A stretch of DNA of 64,000 nucleotides from Isosphaera pallida ATCC 43644 (GTDB taxonomy: Bacteria > Planctomycetota > Planctomycetia > Isosphaerales > Isosphaeraceae), in the NCBI RefSeq assembly GCF_000186345.1, contig NC_014962.1:1178001-1242000 (forward strand), written 5' to 3'. This document shows, one piece after another, positions 31,281-46,818 of this stretch. The position numbers were made by a program, and so were the translations under genes. The notes beneath the pieces were generated by a model. That model did no database searches. It was not told where the DNA came from and worked only from the letters and a program-made list of their open reading frames with translations. How positions within the stretch are numbered: position 1 is the stretch's first letter; every line of letters begins with the position of its first letter.

Positions 31281-31717
31281 GGGCGGGTCTCCGCGAATCG
31301 ATCGGTCCCATGTCGTACCGGTCGATTTGGAACGGAGGAAAGCGGCGTGCCGCAAGGCGGGTCGTTGGGGTGGGTGGAACGAACCTATCGTTCTATCGCG
31401 TCCCAAGATTTGTCAAGCCTCGTGTCGCAAGGTCGGAGCCTCGCCCCCCTGGATGGACGGGTCCGCCCTCTCTCGTCGCGCCTGAGTGGTTGGTGACGCC
31501 CAATCCACGGTGGACGTCGGAATCGTTGGAGTGTCTGTTGTGGTTCAGCGGTTCTCAAGCATGCCGATGTTCCACCTGGGTTCGTGCCCATCACCAAAAA
31601 TTCCTTTCTCATCACGCGATCCGTGGTGAGGCCGAGACGGGTGGCGTTGTTGATCCACGATTCACCACCTGGATTGGTTTTCCAATTCGATTTCACCTGA
31701 TTTGGAGTCTGTCGAGC
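31281..31717. other. Divergent intergenic region
   Basis: This gap separates the minus-strand PPC gene and the plus-strand helical lipoprotein gene. The right half is more AT-rich than the surrounding genes, as expected for promoters, but no hexamer pair is convincing. GGAG at 31704-31707 is the ribosome-binding site of the lipoprotein gene. Confidence 0.4.
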
Positions 31718-32284
31718 ATGAATTCCCTGAGCAAACTGCTAGCTTGCGCCTTGATGGCGTGTGTTTCGATGGGTCTGGTGGTCGGATGCAACTCCGAGCA
31801 AGGCAAGAAAGCTGGCGACGCGGTCAAGCAAGGCGGTGCCAAGGCGGGCGAGGCCATTGACAAGGCGGGTGAGTCCGCCGGCAAGGCCATTTCCGAAAAC
31901 GTCAACCAGAAGGCCGGCGAAATCGTGGACGCCGCGGGTGAAAAGACCGGTCAGCTCGTTGAGAAAGCGGGCGAAAAGCTCGGCGAGGGCCTGGAGAAGA
32001 CCGGTGAGGTTGCCGAGAAAGCGGGCGAAGTGATCAAGGAAAAGACCGACGAACTCAAGGAGAAGGCTGGACAGGCTCTTGAGTCCGCCAAGGAGAAGGC
32101 TAGCCAGCTGATCGAAAACGCCACCGGCAAGGCCGAGGAAGCCGAGGAAGCTGCAGAGAAGAAGGCCGAGGAGATCAAGGAGGCCGTTGAAAACAAGGTC
32201 GAGGAAGCCAAGGAGGCTGCGGAGAAGAAGGCCGAAGAGATCAAAGAGGCCGTCGAGAAGAAGGCTGACGGCAACACTCAATAA
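31718..32284 (+). CDS. Helical Ala/Lys/Glu-rich lipoprotein, LEA-like
   Basis: The 188-residue product has a lipoprotein signal ending in LVVGC (cysteine 25), so it should be lipidated. The mature part is almost wholly Ala, Lys, Glu and Gly, arranged as imperfect 11-residue helical repeats (KAGEAIDKAGE, KAGEIVDAAGE, KAEEIKEAVE), as in group 3 LEA and apolipoprotein-like proteins. The last third contains two near-identical copies of an AAEKKAEEIKEAVE unit. Group 3 LEA proteins are disordered when hydrated and protect membranes or proteins on drying; a structural periplasmic rod is an alternative. ATG 31718 has GGAG ten bases upstream. Confidence 0.83.
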   Translation: MNSLSKLLACALMACVSMGLVVGCNSEQGKKAGDAVKQGGAKAGEAIDKAGESAGKAISENVNQKAGEIVDAAGEKTGQLVEKAGEKLGEGLEKTGEVAEKAGEVIKEKTDELKEKAGQALESAKEKASQLIENATGKAEEAEEAAEKKAEEIKEAVENKVEEAKEAAEKKAEEIKEAVEKKADGNTQ

Positions 32285-32484: not shown

Positions 32485-33477
32485 TCATCCAAGCGGCGCA
32501 AACGAGGAGAAGGCGTCGTTTCTGGGCTTGGCAAGGTCCTGGACTTCGACCTTCTCAAGCGAAGACGAGTGGAGTTGGGAAGGAGCGGTGCGATCGATTT
32601 CAAAGTTGCAGCGCCTTGCGGCCGCCACGCAAAGCAAGTTGACAAACGAAGCAATGAGCAGCAACAACAGAGATTGCGCGAGAAAAATGAGGATCAGCAC
32701 CTCGTCCCGAATCGGCCGGGGTTGGAAGGGGAATCCAGCGTTCCAATCAACCCGGCCCACGAACAAGACGAGCCAAAGGCCCAGTCCCAGAACCGCCAGC
32801 CCCCAGGGCAACCGCGACGCACCCAACGCGGAAGGTCCGCCCACCAGACGATAACCTGCAATCCAGTCCTCCACCGGCAGCAACGCGAGTTGGGCCTGAG
32901 CTTCCGTGTCCCATCTGTCGGTCGAGCCGGGTTCGGCGTGGTGGTGTTCCACTACTTCCAGCGCCAGACCAGCGATTAGCGCGAGTTCGATCCAGCCCGA
33001 GAAGGCTCCAAATTGAGACAGGCTCCAGGCGTAATCCTGCGGCAGCAGCGGTTCAATGCCGAGGACGCCGGCGTGGTCCTGCAACCACAGGAGCACATCG
33101 AGAATCCCCAGAAACGCCAACGGGATCGCTTTGCGGTTCCAACTAGTTTGGGTCCAGCGGTTGGGCATCATGAGCATTCCTCCCACCGAGCCAACCAGGA
33201 TCCCCACGCTCATCGACCACCGCCAGACGGGGTTCTCCAGCAATGCGATCAGGGCCGGACGGAGTCCCGGCAAATCCACTATGATGACCAACAGGAACAG
33301 GAACGAATCGACCATCACCAAGCTCAAAGCAATCACCAAGAGACGAAAGCCCCAAGCTGTGATTTGGTAGGAACGCCTCAAAGCGCGTTGCGGAGCGTTG
33401 GAGTCATCGTCGAAGGGAGAGTCGTCGGTGAAGGGGGAGGACATGGTCATCGAAGGCGTGGGTCTCTGAAAACTCAT
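32485..33477 (-). CDS. Six-helix membrane protein of unknown function, downstream of the CcoN-like gene
   Basis: I do not recognise the family. The 330-residue product has about six transmembrane helices, an N-terminal Asp/Ser/Pro-rich cytosolic leader and a hydrophilic C-terminal tail. Between helices 4 and 5 is a His/Glu-rich stretch (EVVEHHHAEPG) that could bind a metal. It is the third gene of a minus-strand series after a diheme cytochrome c and a CcoN-like protein, spaced 180 bases from the latter, so it may be an additional subunit of the same complex. The start at 33477 is chosen by position; the ribosome-binding site is weak, and 33444 and 33450 are alternatives. Confidence 0.65.
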   Translation of the reverse strand: MSFQRPTPSMTMSSPFTDDSPFDDDSNAPQRALRRSYQITAWGFRLLVIALSLVMVDSFLFLLVIIVDLPGLRPALIALLENPVWRWSMSVGILVGSVGGMLMMPNRWTQTSWNRKAIPLAFLGILDVLLWLQDHAGVLGIEPLLPQDYAWSLSQFGAFSGWIELALIAGLALEVVEHHHAEPGSTDRWDTEAQAQLALLPVEDWIAGYRLVGGPSALGASRLPWGLAVLGLGLWLVLFVGRVDWNAGFPFQPRPIRDEVLILIFLAQSLLLLLIASFVNLLCVAAARRCNFEIDRTAPSQLHSSSLEKVEVQDLAKPRNDAFSSFAPLG

Positions 33478-33657
33478 CCCATCGGAATCCAACACGAATC
33501 GGAAAAATCTCCGACGTGCGGGAACGGGATCGCCCGCGACGCCTCCCGAAACGGGAAACGACGCGGGCGTTGGGTCCTGAGGTTGGGGGTGCGGGAGGAA
33601 CAAGGGGATTCGGTCTCGAAGTCTTGTTTCTCCCACGGTTCGCGGACTCTTAGGGAC

Positions 33658-35493
33658 TCAAGGTTGCAACGCGGTGGACGCTGGGGCTGCCAAGGCGGTG
33701 GTGGCCTGCGCGGGGTCGATCGAATACGGCATCGCTGCGTCCGGGAAGATGGCAATCACCAGCAAGGTAGAAATCACGCAGGTCGGTACCAGCATGGCGA
33801 AAATCCAGCGACCCTCGTATTTGAGGTACATCATGTACCAGGCGATCAAAATCACATAGGTGGCCGCTAAACTCACCAAAATGGCGATCATTGGTAAACG
33901 GCCCAGACCTTGCAAGAAGGTGGCGACTAGGAACTGGCTGACCAACACTGCGGCCAGGCCGCCGAAAATCACCAACGAGGTGGATTGAACGTGACGGGAG
34001 CGGCGACTGGGGAGCGGCTCAGCCAAGGGGATGGCCGCCGCGGCGCGGGGACCAAGCCGAAGAACGCAGGAGGTGGTCGTGGCCAAAAAGGTTAACGCTC
34101 CCAACAGCAACGCGCCAAGACCCAGACTGACCCCCCAGAAGAAGACCAGGGATTCCGACTGAATTTGCGCGAAGCTGATCGAGGGAGTGTTGATGGCCAC
34201 CCCTTGAGCGATGCCTCGAAGGGTCAACGCCAACCAGATCAGCGTGACGCCACCCAAGGCGGTGGTCAAATGCAGCTTGATCGGGGCCACTGATGGCCAT
34301 TCCCAGCCAGTCAGCCTGGGCACGATCCAATAAATCGCCCCGGCCATTGCCCAGGTGTAAAGCCCCAGCATTGCCAACCAAGCTTGACCTTCGGAATACA
34401 GGCTGAACTGAACGACTGCCGAGACACTGCGCGTCGTTTGCAGACCCAGCAGCACCGTCGTTATTGGGAAGGCGATTGCCGCAAAGGTACAAAAACGGGC
34501 CACGGGCGAGATCCGAAACGCCGTGCCCGAACCAGCCAGCGTGATCAACAGGCTCAAAGTCAGCAACGCCACCCCAAATCCAGCCATCGTCCGCGCCACG
34601 GTGCTTAAGGCCACCAGCCCCGTGGGCAACGCGGTGGTCGCCAGGTTGAGCGGACCCATCAAGTTGTAGCTCAACACGAAGGTCCACATCCCTAGGAAGG
34701 CGAACGAGTAGGCTGACACTGGCCGGTTGATCGCCTTGGGAAACACGAAGAACAATGACGCTAGGGACAGGGGGGCGATCCAAAGGCCGAATCCGGCCGA
34801 GAGATACCATTGATGAATCGCCACGGCTGACAGGCCGGTGATCGTCAGGTCGAACAACAGTGCCCGCGCCGCCACAAAGACAGTAGGGAACACCACCAAG
34901 GCAATAGCGATAAGCCATTGACTTAGGTAAAGGTTGGCTCGGTCGCTGGTGAAGAGGGTCGCCAGCGTCCAGCTGGCCATGATTCCCATGGCCGCCGCCA
35001 GCATCATGGATGGAACGCGGGGGAATTCCAAGAAGGGGACGCCCGTGCCATAACCCGCCAGGATTCCCACCACCCCGATTGCCACCGCGGCATTCCAAAG
35101 CAGCGTGGCCAGCTTGGGCAGCACGGCGAGCCGGTCGGGGCGACGAGCCATCCGAGGGGTGGCCCAGACCGCCAAACCGAGGCCAGAAAGGCCAACCCAA
35201 CCGTAAGCCAACGCCTGCCAACCCGCCGCGTGAACCCGCCCGTAGGTCAAGAAGCCGATTCCGTCCAGGAAGTCGGGCGAATGGGTTTTGATCGAAGCGA
35301 TCAAGGTCAAACTCAGGCCCACTACCAACCAGACCAACGCGCTGACCATCAAGGCCAACACCGGAGCCTTGGTAGTCGCGTCGATCGCCGCCCGCATCGT
35401 CGTGAGCGTTGCGGACGCGCCGATTGCGACACCGTTAGACTCAGGGACTGAGGACGAGGAGGAAGGGGCTGAGGCTGCCGCCGCGTGAGTCAT
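33658..35493 (-). CDS. CcoN-like heme-copper oxidase subunit I homolog lacking the canonical histidine ligands
   Basis: The 611-residue membrane protein has 12 or more helices. Its backbone matches cbb3 oxidase subunit I (CcoN): TYGRVHAAGWQALAYGW aligns with the helix II motif, FPKAINRPVSAYS with PKQAERPVYSY, GPLNLATTALP with GPHHLHYTALP, AIYWIVPRL with the post-heme segment, and RGIAQG is conserved. At the ligand positions, however, I read G91 for the low-spin heme histidine (H88 lies three residues earlier), S232, L282 and N283 for the three CuB histidines, and Q370 and W372 for the heme histidine pair. It is therefore unlikely to reduce oxygen. It follows a diheme cytochrome c gene on the same strand and diverges from a complete cytochrome c oxidase operon. 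Possible roles are quinol binding, electron transfer or complex assembly. Confidence 0.75.
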   Translation of the reverse strand: MTHAAAASAPSSSSSVPESNGVAIGASATLTTMRAAIDATTKAPVLALMVSALVWLVVGLSLTLIASIKTHSPDFLDGIGFLTYGRVHAAGWQALAYGWVGLSGLGLAVWATPRMARRPDRLAVLPKLATLLWNAAVAIGVVGILAGYGTGVPFLEFPRVPSMMLAAAMGIMASWTLATLFTSDRANLYLSQWLIAIALVVFPTVFVAARALLFDLTITGLSAVAIHQWYLSAGFGLWIAPLSLASLFFVFPKAINRPVSAYSFAFLGMWTFVLSYNLMGPLNLATTALPTGLVALSTVARTMAGFGVALLTLSLLITLAGSGTAFRISPVARFCTFAAIAFPITTVLLGLQTTRSVSAVVQFSLYSEGQAWLAMLGLYTWAMAGAIYWIVPRLTGWEWPSVAPIKLHLTTALGGVTLIWLALTLRGIAQGVAINTPSISFAQIQSESLVFFWGVSLGLGALLLGALTFLATTTSCVLRLGPRAAAAIPLAEPLPSRRSRHVQSTSLVIFGGLAAVLVSQFLVATFLQGLGRLPMIAILVSLAATYVILIAWYMMYLKYEGRWIFAMLVPTCVISTLLVIAIFPDAAMPYSIDPAQATTALAAPASTALQP

Positions 35494-35773: not shown

Positions 35774-37579
35774 TCAAGAACGCAGCGGGGTGTCGGGATC
35801 ACCGTCGAGTTCGTCCAAGACATTTTCGGTGGTGCGGCGGACACCGTCGGATAAGTCACGAGCGATCGCCCACATCAGACCGAGCAACACGCCAAGACCC
35901 AGCATCATGGTCAGCGCCGAGCGACTGGTTTCTTGTTCCTGAAGCAAGGCGGTGTCGGTGGTGGTCGCCTGAGCCTCCGCTTGGGAGATCGGTTCGTCCC
36001 GAGCTTGGGGACTGGAGGCGTCCGCGTTGGCGTTGGCGTTGGCCAGCAGATCGGGTTGGTAGGGGAGGCTGAGAACGAAGTTGACCACGTCCCAAACCTG
36101 GTCGGATGTGCTGAGTTGTCCAGGATAGTGGGCAGGCATCTTACCGTGGTTGAAGCCGTAGGCGATTCGCAGGTAGACTCCCTTGGCGATCCGCTCGCGG
36201 TCCTCGGCGGTCAGGTTGTCGGCGTGTCCGCCCTTGTAGTAGCCCAGGTAGAGGTTAGCGGGACGCACCATGTCGCCCCACTCGGTCTTGGAGTCGTTCC
36301 AAAGCTGCGTTTTGGCGTTGACGAACGCCTCGAGGTCGAGGTCCGGTTTGCGGCCTTGAGCCACGAGGTCGGCATAGGTGTTGCGGATCGCGGTGTCAAC
36401 CGTTTCGCCTTGAAGATAAACGCGGTCGAAAATGGCCCGGTCGATGAAGCTCTCGCCGTTGCCGTTGCCGTTGACCCCGTGGCAGCCGACGCAGCCAGCC
36501 ACAGCGTAAAGCTGGCGGCCTCGCTCGATGCTCTCCCGGGTGGCCGGAACCCGGGGCGGGATCGGCACCACCTTGGAGGGGGCGGCATTCCACTCGGAAA
36601 GCACCTGAGTCACCGTCTCCCGGGGATCGGCTCCGAGCAAGTCCTCTAGGGTTTCGGCCTCCTCGTCAGCCGGGAAGGCAGCGAGTTGCAACAGCTTGCG
36701 CTCGGTTTCGCCGCGCATCGAGAGATAAATCGTGTAATCCACCACAGCGTTGAGATCCTCGGGACTCAACACGTCGCCAAACGCAGGCATTGATACATTC
36801 TTATAAATGTTTTTGAAGCCATATTTGATCGAGAGGTAGAGGTCGTCGCGCAGTGGCTTGTCGCGTTCCTTGGTGGAGACGAAGTTGAACACGCCGATGG
36901 TAAAGTTGCGGGGAACCGAGACGTAGGCCTGGGCGGAGGGACCGTTGCCCGCCCCGGCCGAACCATGACAATTGGCGCAGTATTGGGCGTACACCTTGGC
37001 GCCGCGTTGGAGAACTGGACGGTGGTTGGGGTTGGCCAGGAGGGTAGTGAGGGCATCTGGGGGGGCGTTTTCCAGGGCAGGCACGACCGCCTCGCGGGGG
37101 GACAAGCCAAAGGTTTCGCCGACGAACTGACCGATCAATTCCAAACCTTTGTCGGGGATCGGTTCGCCCTTGGCCTCTTGTTGGGCGAGGAAGGGTTGAT
37201 TGGGGGGGAAGGGTTGGGCGAGGGCATCCGCGACCTCGGGTTCGGGAGCGGCTTTGGCCGTGGCGTCCTGGGGTTGGTTGGCCAGCAACTCCATCGCCAA
37301 GGTGACCGGGGGCGCGACAGTTCGGTTGCGGGGATCAATCACCCGCCCCTGTTCCAGTTCGGCGGTCTCGGCGGCCCGCAGGGCCACCAAGGCGGCGTTG
37401 TCGCGTAGGTCAGCGGGATCGGTGGGACGGGCAGTCACCAACCCTTGGACGCCGACCACAATGACCGCGACTGAGGCAGCCAAGCCTAAAACTGCCAGCA
37501 CCACTGGCACCACCCCAGATCCTCGGCCGGCGGAGGCCGAGGAATTGGGCTCGCTCGTCGGCACACTTGTCATCGACAT
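35774..37579 (-). CDS. Membrane-anchored diheme cytochrome c
   Basis: The 601-residue product has an N-terminal transmembrane helix (about 22-45), a large extracytoplasmic part and a second C-terminal helix (about 555-575). Two c-type heme sites are present: CANCH near residue 202 with MPAF as the likely axial methionine, and CVGCH near 363 with KMPAHYPG. The two domains align throughout with the plus-strand diheme lipoprotein starting at 38375 (shared VDYTIYLSMRGETE, VRPANL and QVWDVVNFVLSLP). It probably passes electrons to or from the CcoN-like complex and the aa3-type oxidase. ATG 37579 has GGGAG ten bases upstream; an in-frame TTG at 37585 precedes it. Confidence 0.85.
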   Translation of the reverse strand: MSMTSVPTSEPNSSASAGRGSGVVPVVLAVLGLAASVAVIVVGVQGLVTARPTDPADLRDNAALVALRAAETAELEQGRVIDPRNRTVAPPVTLAMELLANQPQDATAKAAPEPEVADALAQPFPPNQPFLAQQEAKGEPIPDKGLELIGQFVGETFGLSPREAVVPALENAPPDALTTLLANPNHRPVLQRGAKVYAQYCANCHGSAGAGNGPSAQAYVSVPRNFTIGVFNFVSTKERDKPLRDDLYLSIKYGFKNIYKNVSMPAFGDVLSPEDLNAVVDYTIYLSMRGETERKLLQLAAFPADEEAETLEDLLGADPRETVTQVLSEWNAAPSKVVPIPPRVPATRESIERGRQLYAVAGCVGCHGVNGNGNGESFIDRAIFDRVYLQGETVDTAIRNTYADLVAQGRKPDLDLEAFVNAKTQLWNDSKTEWGDMVRPANLYLGYYKGGHADNLTAEDRERIAKGVYLRIAYGFNHGKMPAHYPGQLSTSDQVWDVVNFVLSLPYQPDLLANANANADASSPQARDEPISQAEAQATTTDTALLQEQETSRSALTMMLGLGVLLGLMWAIARDLSDGVRRTTENVLDELDGDPDTPLRS

Positions 37580-38374
37580 CGACAATTCACTCCCTCAATC
37601 CACGACGGCAGGGGGAAAGTTGGGGCGGACGGTCTTCCCCCTTCGCTTTGCGGGGATCGAATCAGACTGGAAACCCGGCAGAACCCAAAGAACGGGCATG
37701 TCGGTTCACAACGCCGTCGCAACGGAGCGGAAGACTCAAAACGAAAAAAGAAGACGAGACGACGTGGAACGACGGTTCGACTTGGTTGGAGGCGCAGTCA
37801 GACAACGCCGCCTCGGCAATCGATCACTCCATCCGATACGACGCCATCCCGCCTCATCATCTTCATGGTATCGGATCACCACGACCCGCGCCAATGGTCA
37901 CCACCGCGAACCAAGAGTCTTCTTGAATTTCAAAAGTTTCGAAAGGATTGAAATGGCTGGTCTGTCTTGTTCCAAGGCGGGGGCCTTATTATGATTTGCC
38001 GCGGGGAGGTCCACGCGCTCAACTGCGATCATCAATCTTCGTCCATCCTGTCGTGACCACGTCAGATTACGTCCCTCGCAGACGCCGCCCCGCATGTCAC
38101 GGCGATGGATGCTTCCGCCCCTCCCCCTGGCCGCTCAATTCCCAAGCTGATTCCACCGTTCGACTCCGCCCCGCTCCTCACCGTAACGGTCGAACCAGTT
38201 GATGGATTGATTCGTCTCCGCATTGTCCGCATGTTCGACATGATCCCACGCAGGAACGGCCGTCTGAACCCTTCCCAGCCGCGTGTCGCCGCCCTGAATG
38301 AGATTCGGGCTCGTTCGCCGCACGTTGGTGGGTCGATTTCGGTTGGAATTCTCGCGTGTCGAGGAGGTTGCGAC
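37580..38374. other. Divergent control region between the two cytochrome c genes
   Basis: These 795 bases separate the two arms of the respiratory cluster and must hold the promoters for both. Frames crossing it have non-protein composition. A TATTAT at about 37985 lies in a locally AT-rich patch but has no matching -35 element at normal spacing. I could not find a palindromic FNR- or Rex-like operator by eye. Confidence 0.4.
38361..38367 (+). promoter_or_regulatory. Shine-Dalgarno site fixing a GTG start
   Basis: GAGGAGG seven bases before GTG 38375 decides the start of the diheme cytochrome c lipoprotein. It removes about 90 residues of unsupported N-terminal extension and leaves a proper lipoprotein signal. 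Confidence 0.75.
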
Positions 38375-40318
38375 GTGACCAGACGGGTCCCCTTGTCATT
38401 GTTCCTTTGGATTTGCCTGTTGACGCTCGTCGGCTGCGGCGAGTCTGGCAGGTTGCGTTACTCAGAAAGTCCCCGCTATGCCCAACTCGGTGATCAACGG
38501 GTGAACCTTAAGGCTAAGGTCAAGACCGCGGTGGACGAACTCTTCGGCGCGGCTCCCAACCAAATCCTCGTTCCTGAAGGCAGCTCGCTCGTGGGCGAGC
38601 GTGGCACCGGAATCCGTGCCGCCGGCATCTACCTGGCAGGGCTGACCAAGACCGAGACGGGCGAACTGGCCAGCATCCACGAACAGTCGAAAGACGACCC
38701 GGCGATCAAAGGGGGATACGCCCTGTATCGCCGTCATTGCCTTCATTGCCACGGCGTTTCGGGAGACGGCAACGGTCCTACTGCGCCGTTTTTGTACCCC
38801 AAGCCCCGCGACTTCCGCCCCGGCGTGTACAAGTTCACCTCGACTAATGGGGTCAAGCCAACTCGGGCTGATCTATACAAGACCATCAAGGAAGGTCTGC
38901 ACGGCACCTCGATGCCATCGTTCGACGCCCTCATGACGGATGACGAGATTCAGCAGGTCATCGATTACACCTTGTATCTCTCGATCCGCGGCGAAACCGA
39001 AGCCAAACTGATCCAAGAGGCCCAACTCTCGGTTGCCGACATGTTGGAACCCGGCCAGGACGTGGCCGCGGACGCCAACCTGGTGGATCTGTTCGAGGAG
39101 GCCGGCTCGTCCCTGGTGCCCAAAGAGTTGCCCGCTCAGATCGCCCAGGAGTGGTTCGAGACCGACCAGAACGTGACCCGTCCTGTGGTCTCCCGCCCCG
39201 GTATCACCGCGGCGAGCATCGAACGCGGACGCGATCTCTACTTCTCCGTCGGCTGCAATGCCTGTCACGGCGACCTCGGCGACAGTGGCGGCGAGAGCTT
39301 CCTCGATCAAGAGATGTACAATGCCATCGTCTTCGCGCGTCAACCGGTGCACGTGGCGGCCGTCAAACGATTCGCCGAGGAACGAACCCGCAAAACGCAG
39401 GCCGAAGAGACGGCCCTCCGCCTGGTTCGGCTCGGCTCCAACCGCCATCGGGCCTTGGAATCGTTGCGAGCGAACCCGGCGCTGCAGCCCTATGCCGACG
39501 AGGCAGTTGACCACGCCCTTCAAGCCAAAGCGCAAGGCAAACTCGACTCCCAAAGCGGTCATTCCCCGTTCCGGCCCGAGCTGCAAAGCGCCGTCGAGGT
39601 GGCCAAGTTTCTGGTGGAGAACGACATTGCCCTCAAATATGTCTTCGACCCAGTCGGTTGGACGGCCGCGCCCCGCAACTTCAACCCTCAACAGGGTTCT
39701 CCTATCCTGACCACCGAGCAACTCCGAGGACTCGAAACGTTCCGAGCGGAACTAACCCTGGCCGCCGCCGAAAACCGCGATGAAGCCCGCGCCCAGATCG
39801 AGGCCAAGATGAACGAAGCTCGGCAACGGAACCAGGCTGAGCCCTCCGACGAAACCCAAGCGGCCTTGGAGGAAGCCCTGGCGGAACTGAAACGATGGGA
39901 GAACGCTCCCGCTACCATTGATCGAGTGCTGAGCTGGATTCCCGAACTGAGGGACCCCGGCTTCCAAGCCTATTTCGTCAACGCGCTGACCAAGTGGAGC
40001 TACAGCCGCGACGAGGTCTGGTTCAACCCCATCCGTCCGGCGAACCTCCGCAAAGGGGTCTACAAAGGCGGCCGTCGTCCCTACGACCTCTGGCTCCGGA
40101 TCGCTAATGGCATCCAACCGGTGAAGATGCCTGGTTATCTCGGCGAGGGAGAGGGCAAGCTCAACCAAGAGCAAATCTGGGACGTGGTCAACTTCGTGCT
40201 GGCGCTTCCGTCCAACACCGGGTTACTAGACCATCACCAACCCCCCGCACCCCACCGCCACTCAGACTCCGAAATGGAACCCGCAGCCGGCGCGGCTATC
40301 GCCGCTCGCCACGAGTGA
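38375..40318 (+). CDS. Diheme cytochrome c lipoprotein
   Basis: The 647-residue product starts with a lipoprotein signal (LSLFLWICLLTLVGC), so it should be tethered to the membrane by a lipidated cysteine. Heme sites are CLHCH (122-126) with MPSF as probable axial ligand and CNACH (294-298) with KMPGY. A helical insert (about residues 330-560), rich in Glu, Ala and Arg, separates heme domain 2 from the closing segment IRPANLRKGVYKGG and QIWDVVNFVLALP. It is a paralog of the minus-strand diheme protein at 35774. Its position 403 bases before subunit II suggests that it donates electrons to the CuA site of the oxidase. The very C-terminal tail is His/Pro-rich. Confidence 0.85.
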   Translation: MTRRVPLSLFLWICLLTLVGCGESGRLRYSESPRYAQLGDQRVNLKAKVKTAVDELFGAAPNQILVPEGSSLVGERGTGIRAAGIYLAGLTKTETGELASIHEQSKDDPAIKGGYALYRRHCLHCHGVSGDGNGPTAPFLYPKPRDFRPGVYKFTSTNGVKPTRADLYKTIKEGLHGTSMPSFDALMTDDEIQQVIDYTLYLSIRGETEAKLIQEAQLSVADMLEPGQDVAADANLVDLFEEAGSSLVPKELPAQIAQEWFETDQNVTRPVVSRPGITAASIERGRDLYFSVGCNACHGDLGDSGGESFLDQEMYNAIVFARQPVHVAAVKRFAEERTRKTQAEETALRLVRLGSNRHRALESLRANPALQPYADEAVDHALQAKAQGKLDSQSGHSPFRPELQSAVEVAKFLVENDIALKYVFDPVGWTAAPRNFNPQQGSPILTTEQLRGLETFRAELTLAAAENRDEARAQIEAKMNEARQRNQAEPSDETQAALEEALAELKRWENAPATIDRVLSWIPELRDPGFQAYFVNALTKWSYSRDEVWFNPIRPANLRKGVYKGGRRPYDLWLRIANGIQPVKMPGYLGEGEGKLNQEQIWDVVNFVLALPSNTGLLDHHQPPAPHRHSDSEMEPAAGAAIAARHE

Positions 40319-40721
40319 CAAGGGGAAACCTCCGCCCGCTCCCCTCCCCACCACCCCATCCCTCGACTCATCGAGGAACTTGGTAAGGGGGCGGGTCGAA
40401 GTCTGAGCGAGCGAACGCAACTCCCAGCGTCCTCGCCACTGGTGACCCATCCGTCAAGCCCAGGCTCGCCCTTGATTCGATTGTCGGCGGCTTGCGAAAC
40501 GGACCGCGTCCTCGTCCAACGTATTGCGACCGGATCGCCAGCTCGCTCTCGCCGTCGTCTCGGAATCAGTTGATCATCCGCACCGTTTTGACCACTCCAA
40601 GTCGAATCGAATTCACCCCTCATCCCTCGGCCGTCCACCTTGGCCGGGTCGCAACCCCATCGAGCCGTCCGACGGTTTGCCGGTCCCGCCGACCGGTCCC
40701 CGGACGCGGGAGAATCCAACC
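40319..40721. other. Gap between the diheme lipoprotein and coxB
   Basis: This stretch carries a short perfect hairpin (CCTCGA/TCGAGG around 40362-40377) flanked by C-rich and G-rich runs that could extend the pairing. No T-tract follows. It may be a weak stop or a processing site that sets different levels of cytochrome and oxidase. I see no gene; GGGAG at 40708-40712 is the coxB ribosome-binding site. Confidence 0.4.
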
Positions 40722-41644
40722 GTGCGATTGTGGAGCGTCTTCTTCGCCGTGATGTCGGTAGCGTTGTTAGGGATTTACCTCTACGCTCCGACCAACCCCG
40801 AATGGTGGCTACCCAACACTTACCACACCCTGGGCGCTCACGAGCCCCAAGTGGCCGAGCAGTCGGTGGCCGCCCTGGGTCGGGAAGTCGATCACTTGTT
40901 CATGATTGTTCTTTGGTTGACCGGGATCACCTTTGTTCTGGTGTCGGTGGTGTTCTGCTACGTTGCGTGGAAGTTCGGCGACGAACCGGGCCGCAAATCG
41001 ACCTACACCCACGGCAGCACGACCCTGGAGGTGGTCTGGACGGCGGTGCCGGCGCTCATTTTGGTGTTCATCGCGGTGTACCAACTTAGTACCTGGGCCC
41101 ACATCAAATATCGATCTAACGCGCCGTCCGGTCCAGTGCTGGCAGAGGTGACCGCCCGCCAGTTCCAATGGATCACCCGTTACGCCGGTCCTGATGGGAA
41201 ACTGCGAACCCCGGACGACATCATCACGATCAACGACTTCCACTTCTACGCCGACGAGGAGATCGACGAATCCGGGCGAGTGGTGGCGACTAAAGGCGTT
41301 CCCACCAAAATCCTGCTGCGCTCGGAGGATGTGCTGCATTCCTTTTTCCTACCCCAGTTGCGAATCAAGCAGGACGCGGTCCCCGGTTTGACCATCCCGG
41401 TTTGGTTTGACGCCGACCGCCCTGGTGAATACGAACTGGTGTGCGCCGAGTTGTGCGGTTGGGGCCACTACAAGATGCGCAGCAAAATGGTGGTCCACCG
41501 CAACAAGGCCGAGTTCGAGCAATGGCTGGCTGACCAGCAGAAGCGTCAATTCGAGGACGGCACCGGCAACGCCCAGGTCGGTTCGCCCGAATCGTCCCCC
41601 CCCAACTCTAACCCCGACCCGACCACGACGGGAGGAATCGCGGA

Positions 41645-41648
<4 letters not shown>
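40722..41648 (+). CDS. coxB: Cytochrome c oxidase subunit II
   Basis: The 308-residue product has a first hydrophobic segment (signal or anchor), then two subunit II helices (about 55-80 and 100-122) and an extracytoplasmic cupredoxin domain. All CuA ligands are present: H206 in VLHSFF, then C241, E243, C245, H249 and M252 in CAELCGWGHYKM. CuA accepts electrons from cytochrome c and passes them to heme a. No cytochrome c domain is fused to the C-terminus, which instead ends in a Pro/Ser/Asn tail; the separate diheme protein upstream may fill that role. The start is GTG 40722 with GGGAG nine bases upstream. Its stop overlaps coxA by four bases. Confidence 0.95.
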
Positions 41649-43525
<1,877 letters not shown>

Positions 43526-43785
43526 GGCAACGGCCCGTCGGTTAGGTTCGTTGTTGCTGAAGTGAGTCTTCAAAGGTGGTCGCGCGGCTCGTGTGTGGGG
43601 CTCGGCCGACCACCTGCCTCGTCGATCCCTCACCCAGTCGCGTCGCACCGCGACCTGGCGACGGCGGACGCCTGACCGCTCCGCCGCCGCATTGCGACCC
43701 CCAAGCGCTGCCGCGGTTCAGCCGCCATCCACACTTCACGGGTCGAACCGTCTTCCAAGACCCCGTCAACCCTCAACCCCCCCCA

Positions 43786-44895
43786 ATGCTCATGGCCACG
43801 GTGCTCGCGGAACCCCGGCCTTCCTCGCCCGACGCTCCGTCAGATCGGCCCGAGTCCACCGCTTCTCAAGCGAACCCGGTTCGGCCCGATGCGGTGCTTC
43901 CCTCCCTTCAGTCCTGCACGTATCGATATAAACCTATACCCTTCTGGTTATCGGTCGGCGCGGTGGCATTCACTTGGCCCTTGCTCTTTGTAGGTGGTTT
44001 AGTGACCACCTACGGCGTCGGCATGGCGGTGCCCGATTGGCCCACCACCTTTGGCGATAACATGTTCCTCTACGACATGACGGAGGCCGCCTGGGGCGTG
44101 TTCATCGAACACGGCCACCGGCTCTACGGAGCGGCGGTCGGTTTGTGTGTGTTGGCGTTGACGATCTGGATGGTCGCGTTTGAGACCCGCCGGGTGGTCC
44201 TCTACACCAGTTTGGCCGCGTTGGTGGCGGTGCTGCTCCAGGGACTTCTGGGCGGTCAACGGGTTTTAGCCAACTCCACCACCCTGGCCATGGTTCACGG
44301 CGGGTTCGGTCAAGCCACCTTCGCGTTGATGGTGGCGCTGGCAACCGTGACCTCGCGCGCCTGGACCGAGGGAGGGGGCCTGTTCCAACGTCATGTCGCC
44401 GCCGCGTCCCCGCCGGTTCGGGTGTCGGATCCCGCGGGTTTGCGTTGGCTTGCTCCTGCGCTGGTGGCTTTGGTGTATGGACAGATCCTTCTGGGCGGTT
44501 GGATTCGCCACTTTCTGGATCCCCCGGCCTTCTGGATTCACGGCGGTGGGTCCTTCGTGGTCCTGACCACCACGGGTCTCCTGCTTTACCAGGTGGAACG
44601 GCATCGTCACACGCTCAAGGGAACTGGTCTGGTGACCGCCAGCCGCTGGTTTGGCGCAGCGGTCTTGGGCCAGTTCGTGTTGGGCTTGACCGTGGCGGTG
44701 GTGCTCTGGCCGTTTGACGGGATGCCGCACGAGATCACGATTCCCGGCGTCTGGACCCGCACCGGGCATGTCGCTCTGGGGGCGATGGTGCTGGGTCTGG
44801 CGGTGGTGGTGTCCTTGCTGGCCCGGCGTCGTCTCGTCGCTCAATCCAAGTCCCCCGATCCTTCGTCGTGTCGGATGGAAGGAGCTGTTGCATGA
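43786..44895 (+). CDS. ctaA: Heme A synthase (CtaA/COX15)
   Basis: The 369-residue product has eight transmembrane helices and oxidises the heme O methyl group to the formyl group of heme A. The conserved heme ligands are present: the EHGHR motif (E108, H109, H111), H171 in MVHGGFGQ, H242 in IRHFLDP and H328 in RTGHVALG. VVPDWPTTFG-like VPDWPTTFGDNM follows helix 1 as in the family. About 60 Ser/Pro/Ala-rich residues precede the first helix, and there is no clear ribosome-binding site (C-rich leader), so the exact ATG (43786 or 43792) is uncertain. The stop overlaps the ctaB start. Confidence 0.92.
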   Translation: MLMATVLAEPRPSSPDAPSDRPESTASQANPVRPDAVLPSLQSCTYRYKPIPFWLSVGAVAFTWPLLFVGGLVTTYGVGMAVPDWPTTFGDNMFLYDMTEAAWGVFIEHGHRLYGAAVGLCVLALTIWMVAFETRRVVLYTSLAALVAVLLQGLLGGQRVLANSTTLAMVHGGFGQATFALMVALATVTSRAWTEGGGLFQRHVAAASPPVRVSDPAGLRWLAPALVALVYGQILLGGWIRHFLDPPAFWIHGGGSFVVLTTTGLLLYQVERHRHTLKGTGLVTASRWFGAAVLGQFVLGLTVAVVLWPFDGMPHEITIPGVWTRTGHVALGAMVLGLAVVVSLLARRRLVAQSKSPDPSSCRMEGAVA

Positions 44896-45944
44896 GCTTG
44901 ACCACCCTCGGCCCGCCTCCCTCCCACGAGTCGTTGGGACCCGAGGGGGATCTGGGTCCCGCGGTCGCGTCGGCGGCGGATTCTTCGACCGCAGCGTTGC
45001 CGTTGTCTCCAGCATGGGGCGGTCCCTCCCGCCCCCTCACCCAACCGCGTGCGAGCATCTCCCATCGTTCCCACTGGAAACATCTGGTTAGCCTCACCAA
45101 GCCGCGGCTCACCTTGATGGTGTTGGTGACGGTCGCCGTAGGGTTCGCTGCCGCTGACCGTTTGCGGGGCGACACGCCATTCCGTCTCCTGGAATTGACC
45201 ACCGCCGTGCTAGGCACCGGCCTGGTCGCCGGTGCCGCCGGAGCGTGGAACATGCTTTTGGAGCGCGACCGCGACGCCCGGATGCGCCGAACTGCGCAGC
45301 GCCCCCTGCCCAGCGGAGCATTGAGCCCCTTCGAGGCGGGCTTGTTCGGAACGTTGCTTCTCGTGGTGGGATGCTCGATTCTTGGTTTGTTCAACAACGT
45401 GCTGGCCGCGGCAATGGCGTTGCTGACCTTTTTGCTGTATGTAGGAGTCTACACTCCTCTCAAGGCACGAACTACCCTCAATACCGCGATGGGGGCGATC
45501 CCAGGCGCGTTGCCGCCGGCGATCGGCTGGGCGGCGGCCACCGGCCAACTTGGTCTTGAACCGCTTTGCCTGTTCCTGATCGTTTTCCTGTGGCAATTCC
45601 CCCACTTCCTGGCCATCGCATGGCTGCACCGCCACGACTACGCCCAGGCGGGGTACCGGATGCTCACCCATCCCGACCTCGACCCCAAAGGACGGATCAC
45701 TGGCCGTCAGGCGTTGTTCCATGCGCTGGCTTTGGTGCCGGTCGGGTTACTGCCCTCGGTAGTGGGACTCACTGGCAGCTGGTACTTCATCGGAGCCCTG
45801 GCGCTGGGGACCCACTACTTGGCCGCCTCGGCCCACTTTCACCATCAACCAGGGGACGCTACGGCTCGTCGTCTGCTCAAAGCGTCGTTCCTTTATCTTC
45901 CACTGTTGCTGAGTTTGCTCATCTACGACCGCTTGCCGATCTGA
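44892..45944 (+). CDS. ctaB: Protoheme IX farnesyltransferase (heme O synthase)
   Basis: The 350-residue product is a UbiA-superfamily prenyltransferase with about eight helices after a 65-residue Ser/Pro-rich leader. It adds a farnesyl group to heme B, giving heme O, the substrate of CtaA. The first diphosphate-binding motif is NMLLERDRDARMRRTAQRPL, and the second aspartate-rich region is WLHRHDYAQAGYRML. YTPLKARTTLNT is another signature. ATG 44892 overlaps the ctaA stop (ATGA) and has AAGGAG (44879-44884) upstream. CtaA and CtaB together supply heme A to the adjacent oxidase. Confidence 0.94.
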   Translation: MSLTTLGPPPSHESLGPEGDLGPAVASAADSSTAALPLSPAWGGPSRPLTQPRASISHRSHWKHLVSLTKPRLTLMVLVTVAVGFAAADRLRGDTPFRLLELTTAVLGTGLVAGAAGAWNMLLERDRDARMRRTAQRPLPSGALSPFEAGLFGTLLLVVGCSILGLFNNVLAAAMALLTFLLYVGVYTPLKARTTLNTAMGAIPGALPPAIGWAAATGQLGLEPLCLFLIVFLWQFPHFLAIAWLHRHDYAQAGYRMLTHPDLDPKGRITGRQALFHALALVPVGLLPSVVGLTGSWYFIGALALGTHYLAASAHFHHQPGDATARRLLKASFLYLPLLLSLLIYDRLPI

Positions 45945-46053: not shown

Positions 46054-46818
46054 ATGGCCGACGCCGCACTCAACCCCGCCGTCCTCGCCGGTGCCGCCGT
46101 CCCAACGGGACACGCCGCTTCCACCTCACCGTTTCAGTTCAAAATGGCCCCCAAGGTGGCGATGTGGTTGTTCCTGGGGACCGAAGTGATGTTCTTCACT
46201 GGACTCATCGGTTCCTACCTGGTGCTTCGCGCCGGCAGCCCGGCGACCGCCTACAGCGCTGTGTATCCTCCCAACGCCGCCCCGGCCGTCGCTAAGGCCA
46301 ACGTCGATGATCCCATCTATGGCTTCACCTCTTGGCCCCGACCCTACGACAGCGCGACTAACCCGCTCAATATCCCCATGACCTGGGCCAACACCCTGAT
46401 CCTCATGTCCTCCTCGGTGACGCTGAGTCTGGCGATCATGGCCATCCAGCGCGGCAAACGCGCTCAATTCCTCACGCTGCTGGTCGCCACACTATTGCTA
46501 GGCAGCACCTTCCTCGGAATCCAAATTTTTGAATACTATGAATTGATGTTCCCTCATGAACCTTATCCCATTGGGGTTTCACCTACTGGTGCCTTCACGC
46601 CCGACGTGAGCCTATTCGCCTCGGCCTTCTTCGTGATGACTGGTTTCCACGGGATGCACGTCTTCGCCGGGGCGATTCTGCTGCTCTGGATCACCACGCG
46701 GGCTTTCCTGGGCTATTACACCAAGGACAACCATATCTCGGTCGAAATCGCCGCGCTCTACTGGCACTTCGTCGATTTGGTGTGGATCGTCCTTTTCACG
46801 GTGGTTTACCTGATCTAA
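46054..46818 (+). CDS. coxC: Cytochrome c oxidase subunit III
   Basis: The 254-residue product has five transmembrane helices, as in the short bacterial subunit III without the first two helices. MWLFLGTEVMFFTGLIGSYL contains the conserved acidic residue near the lipid-binding cleft, and FHGMHVFAGAILLLW and YWHFVDLVWIVLF are the standard closing motifs. It stabilises subunit I during turnover. It is the last gene of the plus-strand oxidase operon, about 110 bases after ctaB and just before a strong terminator. No subunit IV gene was seen. Confidence 0.94.
   Translation: MADAALNPAVLAGAAVPTGHAASTSPFQFKMAPKVAMWLFLGTEVMFFTGLIGSYLVLRAGSPATAYSAVYPPNAAPAVAKANVDDPIYGFTSWPRPYDSATNPLNIPMTWANTLILMSSSVTLSLAIMAIQRGKRAQFLTLLVATLLLGSTFLGIQIFEYYELMFPHEPYPIGVSPTGAFTPDVSLFASAFFVMTGFHGMHVFAGAILLLWITTRAFLGYYTKDNHISVEIAALYWHFVDLVWIVLFTVVYLI

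Follow-up and report, generated by a model that had tools for sequence, protein, structure and literature searches.

The window analyzed here, i.e., the whole stretch of 64,000 nucleotides, comes from the genome of Isosphaera pallida, a hot-spring bacterium (5,529,304 bases in two contigs). It contains an intact open reading frame of 611 codons with an ATG start, located on the minus strand, which an earlier interpretation made from the letters alone (hereafter, the sequence-only reading) had not given. The frame encodes a CcoN-like domain joined by a linker of about 25 residues (478–501) to a C-terminal domain of cytochrome c oxidase subunit IV (COX4) that had been overlooked in that reading (Table 1). 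Residues 45–458 of the protein matched the Pfam COX1 model (E = 1.2e-38), and its nearest relative within the COX1 family was subunit I of cbb3 oxidases, CcoN (6e-12 against P. stutzeri CcoN 3mk7 with phmmer), with a score of 58.3 bits to the NCBIfam ccoN model, below the cut-off of 583.15. There are four COX1-family genes in the I. pallida genome, namely the fusion, two CcoN with the six histidines, and the COX1 of a caa3-type oxidase. Both canonical CcoN loci of this genome (L055 and L056) have CcoO, and no CcoO match was found beside the fusion gene in the 20-kb piece of the window that surrounds it (L065). A diheme cytochrome c gene lies 280 bp upstream of the fusion gene on the same strand. 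A promoter and terminator scan gave results no better than those of shuffled sequences.

Table 1. Coordinates within the window of the fusion gene, its domains, the replaced ligand positions, and the neighbouring oxidase genes
Feature	Positions	Strand	Remarks
Fusion protein of 611 aa, His-less CcoN-like domain plus COX4 domain	33658–35493	-	
CcoN-like domain, residues ~32–487	34033–35400	-	modelled with 12 membrane helices; heme/CuB ligands absent
COX4_pro-like domain, residues ~502–591	33721–33990	-	three helices at low model confidence
G91, replacing a low-spin heme b His	35221–35223	-	phmmer and MAFFT alignments
S232, replacing CuB His207	34798–34800	-	alignments; numbering according to PMC3578206
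L282 and N283, replacing CuB His257/His258	34645–34650	-	alignments; numbering according to PMC3578206
Q370, replacing the heme b3 His	34384–34386	-	phmmer and MAFFT alignments
W372, replacing a low-spin heme b His	34378–34380	-	phmmer and MAFFT alignments
Diheme cytochrome c, paralogue of the caa3-operon cytochrome c	35774–37585	-	a hydrophobic segment at either end (by eye)
Cytochrome c, head of the divergent caa3 operon	38105–40318	+	two CxxCH (by eye)
COX2 of caa3-type oxidase	40524–41648	+	
COX1 of caa3-type oxidase	41645–43525	+	ligand motifs present (translation, by eye)
CtaA-like heme A synthase	43576–44895	+	Pfam COX15-CtaA
CtaB heme O synthase	44868–45944	+	
COX3	46054–46818	+	bioA (46930) next after 111 bp

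All six histidines that bind heme or CuB in CcoN are replaced in the fusion protein, as the sequence-only reading had claimed, and the same residues (G91, S232, L282, N283, Q370, and W372) occupied these positions in the alignment with 3mk7 and in every MAFFT set. We take His60, His345, and His347 to be the P. stutzeri counterparts of G91, Q370, and W372, respectively. The six ligands were kept in all 27 other proteins of a 28-protein alignment, in all 49 same-class homologs of a 50-protein alignment, in 79 of 80 homologs from named genomes (81 proteins including the fusion; the exception, L134, has one missing), and in nine of nine further homologs from the phylum search (L190–L198), with the sets of 28, 50, and 81 proteins overlapping and several named records representing the same contigs as others. 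The named set comprises 80 of the 209 confirmed relatives, and in the class search the ligand columns were checked for the loci obtained, the matches listed there including many more places than loci. Because these named relatives were identified by patterns taken from His-bearing CcoN, one lacking the histidines could have escaped notice. The fusion protein itself has six histidines (3, 71, 88, 227, 408, and 501), and the ligand positions hold none of them. Three of these, H88, H227, and H408, had been named in the sequence-only reading as potential ligands that a structure-based alignment might reveal. Each was considered as a shifted ligand and rejected: H88 aligns with a conserved Arg off the ligand columns, H227 lies five residues ahead of a ligand column, and H408, like H71, aligns with a conserved non-ligand His.

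An AlphaFold2 model of the protein was built with 69 sequences, and its alignment included 68 of the 80 named loci (left out were L095 and L149, whose frames contain stops or breaks, and ten others, L134 among them). The block-mean pLDDT was at least 80 over residues 31–260 and 331–480, and 61–77 over residues 261–330, the region of the lost CuB pair L282/N283. The COX4 part, built without COX4 relatives, was poorly modelled (pLDDT at most 52 over residues 501–600). Comparison with VIA-align gave Z 51.6 against CcoN of 8smr (448 residues, 2.0 Å) and Z 51.5 against CcoN of 3mk7 (442 residues, 1.7 Å), five CcoN chains being found at Z 49.8–51.6, and the seven best Foldseek rows were all CcoN chains; these rows hardly test the COX4 part. 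The 12-helix heme-copper oxidase fold thus seems to be retained in the model, which is biased to the CcoN fold because canonical CcoN were present in its alignment.

In a maximum-likelihood tree of 42 rows (out of the 50 of the class alignment, with eight distant rows left out), the fusion protein was placed inside the planctomycete CcoN clade with support 100/99. Its branch measured 4.44 changes per column compared to a median end branch of 0.2, and its sister lacks resolution; the placement of so long a row, with a residue make-up unlike the other rows, is unsure. Neither an orthologue nor a second CcoN-COX4 fusion was found in 45 family, 297 class, and 392 phylum genomes, and a contig scan with the fusion protein as query returned no orthologue either. 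The class and phylum genomes were drawn from larger groups, and in each genome the best few candidates were scored (at most 4 in the class and 3 in the phylum). No single match spanned both the CcoN part and the COX4 domain, whether in the family, in the class at E 1e-20, or in the phylum at 1e-30, cut-offs that would hide weak lone COX4 matches but not a close fusion orthologue. Five class matches (G076, G153, G180, G219, and G258) reached residues 518–535, i.e., 16–33 past the usual CcoN end; these matches had 25–31% identity, two of them ran over stops, and none covered the COX4 domain, most of which lies beyond their ends. The whole case rests on one finished genome.

In aa3 and caa3 oxidases, subunit IV has a structural role. 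When the 45 genomes of the family (that of I. pallida included) were searched with the fusion protein, the matches in the other genomes were of two kinds, either CcoN (extending to residue ~502) or small proteins (starting at ~462). The latter are stand-alone COX4 and, counted by eye, occurred in 42 of these 44 genomes, with no matches shown in G006 and G044. PF03626 scored above its cut-off in all seven small proteins of relatives that were tested, and TIGR02229 in one of five, the rest being below. The fusion tail aligned over its length with 22 distinct COX4 relatives; against PF03626 itself it scored 19.3 bits, under the 28.9-bit cut-off, a sub-threshold value that was nevertheless the best for this family in the I. 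pallida genome. A search of this genome with a relative's COX4 gave the fusion as the sole match (E 3.5e-14). A separate COX4 elsewhere was considered for a 14-bit PF03626 match at C2:3972421, which was taken as noise. Judged by these similarity searches, the I. pallida genome has no recognised COX4 other than that of the fusion. In the fused domain, Tyr replaces the His of an MH-x-(K/R) motif that is kept in 22 of 22 distinct aligned COX4 relatives; this loss of a conserved His in the COX4 half as well, like the sub-threshold Pfam score, counts against the proposal made below.

The order of the caa3 genes in relatives was cytochrome c, COX2, COX1, CtaA, CtaB, COX3, and COX4 in seven of seven whole loci (six from the family and one from the class), and an eighth locus, cut by the contig end, had the same order from COX1 to COX4. 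The caa3 operon in the window follows this order up to COX3, after which comes bioA, and the COX4 slot is empty. Because of this empty slot, and because the fusion is the only recognised COX4, the fusion is most probably part of the adjacent caa3 oxidase. With moderate confidence, we propose that a CcoN without cofactors has been reshaped into a structural component and attached to the caa3 oxidase via the fused subunit IV. In its stricter wording, i.e., that a heme-copper oxidase subunit I devoid of any cofactor captured the subunit IV gene of another heme-copper oxidase and thereby became an obligate, stoichiometric part of that enzyme's structure, the proposal stands, in our estimation, at an even chance. 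In such a scenario, a planctomycete CcoN would have been duplicated, and one copy would have lost its hemes and CuB while retaining the 12-helix membrane fold. The C-terminus of this dead copy would have joined the caa3 subunit IV gene, now missing after COX3. Assembly of subunit IV with COX1, COX2, and COX3 would then bring the dead CcoN core along, cofactor-free, beside the caa3 oxidase, as no other source of subunit IV was recognised. The diheme cytochrome c encoded upstream would perhaps be near the dead core and may share its assembly. The sequence-only reading had suggested a structural or quinone-binding subunit of a new respiratory complex. A structural role remains the best reading, whereas a new complex is not favoured, because the only recognised COX4 of the genome ties the fusion to the adjacent and otherwise complete caa3 oxidase.

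The CcoN part of the fusion protein has changed extensively. With conservation defined as 95% across 31 canonical relatives, it keeps 73 of 143 columns, while each canonical relative in a leave-one-out comparison kept 136–143 of 143–149. The losses were heaviest on His (2 of 14 kept, 12 lost) and Tyr/Phe (8 of 24 kept, 16 lost), and lighter on Gly/Pro (21 of 29 kept, 8 lost). The disappearance of half of the conserved columns, together with the very long branch and the lack of an orthologue to reveal site-by-site constraint, could mean that only COX4 matters and that the CcoN part is a passenger, tolerated as an in-frame hydrophobic leader that orients COX4 to the membrane. We consider this unlikely, though worth weighing seriously. 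Neutral decay of the genome's own canonical gene, simulated as substitutions without indels, produced a mean of 11.9 stops at 33% identity (minimum 5 in 200 runs) and a mean of 9.1 at 51% identity (minimum 2). Since the downstream COX4 domain would itself purge stops, a second simulation let the sequence drift while eliminating stops (150 runs, six starting genes, and membrane boundaries that we drew from the model). The membrane columns of the fusion contain 7 charged residues, compared to 16–43 under this drift and 3–8 in the canonical relatives, and their hydropathy (1.51) is higher than in all 31 canonical relatives (1.17–1.40) and all 150 simulations (0.30–1.02). The kept counts of Trp (8), Gly+Pro (21), and His (2) were within the drift ranges (3–10, 11–22, and 2–12, respectively). 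This null purges stops only, and selection for hydrophobic helices alone would pass it. Also at odds with a mere leader are the retention of about twelve helices where none would be needed and loop stretches (e.g., PRLTGWEW) that still match CcoN.

Neither stops, frameshifts, nor loss of membrane character, the usual marks of a pseudogene, were found, and third-position G+C of the open reading frame resembles that of the neighbouring genes. The view of the sequence-only reading that the protein is maintained and not a decaying pseudogene therefore gains support, indirect because no orthologue for a dN/dS comparison was found among the searched genomes, from the absence of stops, the CcoN fold in the model, and the constraint on membrane segments. 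That reading had named, as a pattern that would count against it, homologs with intact histidines together with random decay of this copy. Half of this pattern was seen: the homologs do have their histidines intact, but random decay of the fusion protein is not apparent.

Another explanation would be residual binding of heme, another metal, or quinone via non-canonical residues (e.g., H88, H227, H71, and H408), with a function in redox reactions or sensing. H88 and H227 are indeed only three and five residues, respectively, from lost ligands, and H71, H408, and Y276 (in the column six before His257, presumably that of the cross-linking Tyr) are kept. However, no His pair is left at the canonical positions, 2 of 14 conserved His are kept, and the membrane segments are more hydrophobic than in canonical relatives, so that residual binding appears improbable. 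Under the structural-subunit proposal, this extra hydrophobicity of the core would be expected if the emptied heme pockets had been filled.

A complex of the fusion with the upstream diheme cytochrome c, separate from the caa3 oxidase, would fit the adjacency of the two genes on the same strand. We find it more doubtful still, given the 280-bp gap between them, the COX4 domain that points to caa3, and the fact that the placeable top matches of this cytochrome in relatives (G020, G014, and G002) are caa3-operon cytochromes. The caa3-operon cytochrome of relatives was closer to the window's own operon cytochrome than to the upstream diheme one. These two cytochromes of the same family stand head to head in I. 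pallida, while each of seven relative operons has one, at its head. A sequencing or assembly artefact, for which no support was seen, is highly improbable in a 611-codon open frame with neighbour-like third-position G+C from a complete chromosome covered 109.5x by Illumina and 31.2x by pyrosequence reads (PMC3072084).

With canonical cbb3-type (C-family) CcoN, the fusion shares the modelled fold, the sequence family, and the planctomycete clade, and differs in the six ligands, the adjacent CcoO, and the C-terminal COX4 that CcoN does not have. With COX4_pro, the caa3 subunit IV (PF03626, TIGR02229), its C-terminus aligns over its length, although in relatives this is a separate gene after COX3 and here it is fused, sited elsewhere, and sub-threshold for Pfam. 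A similar role to the one proposed is played by CydB of cytochrome bd, a cofactor-free paralogue of a heme subunit that acts as structural partner; its fold is unrelated to CcoN, and it is ancient and widespread. COX1-COX4 fusions have been described in COX operons of type a-II (Degli Esposti 2014, PMC4013037). There, as here, COX4 is C-terminal to a COX1-superfamily protein, but in those operons it is joined to COX1 itself, which is catalytic judging by its family, whereas in I. pallida it is joined to a CcoN paralogue with no ligands, and COX1 has a gene of its own in the operon. Orphan CcoN subunits of Pseudomonas aeruginosa are likewise encoded by additional genes that do not belong to a complete cbb3 operon, but such a subunit is reported to support growth within a cbb3 oxidase (PMC5697931), while the protein described here has no ligands.

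A literature search over openly available titles and the starts of abstracts, with few subscription papers, retrieved no ligand-free heme-copper oxidase core and no CcoN-COX4 fusion, and two I. pallida genome papers (PMC3072084, PMC5352709) contain neither "cytochrome" nor "oxidase". Fusion of COX4 to COX1 is already in print (PMC4013037). The ligand histidines are regarded as present throughout the superfamily, and for CuB this is stated explicitly, copper being bound by three histidines in all members of the heme-copper oxidase family (PMC3578206). A fold seemingly kept without ligands, beside three core genes that keep theirs, would suggest a route from oxidase core to scaffold, and, if our proposal is true, a dead oxidase core has been built into a live oxidase. 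The fusion would provide a native apo-fold for separating folding residues from cofactor residues, and it would allow a clear-cut test of the idea that dead paralogues are captured as new subunits of oxidases.

The exception among the named homologs (L134:410-1774, on Chthoniobacter flavus MAG contig DYRS01000203.1) is a CcoN homologue in which Ser replaces one CuB His, and Cys stands in for the Tyr normally found six residues ahead of the CuB His pair; on such a short MAG contig, either an error of assembly or a second case of a degenerate CcoN may explain this. Downstream of the fusion gene, after 21 bp, a membrane protein is encoded (32485–33636, minus strand) with homologues in 40 of the 45 family genomes, that of I. 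pallida included. It was considered as a partner and rejected, as its relatives in seven genomes inspected by eye (G009, G020, G049, G050, G052, G056, and G058) lie either on a different contig than the COX4 matches or hundreds of kilobases away from them, and it is probably a chance neighbour. Further along, the open reading frame at 31310–32284 (plus strand) has an internal lipoprotein-like start and a Lys/Glu/Ala-rich repeat tail, with helices that by eye resemble those of LEA proteins or apolipoproteins.
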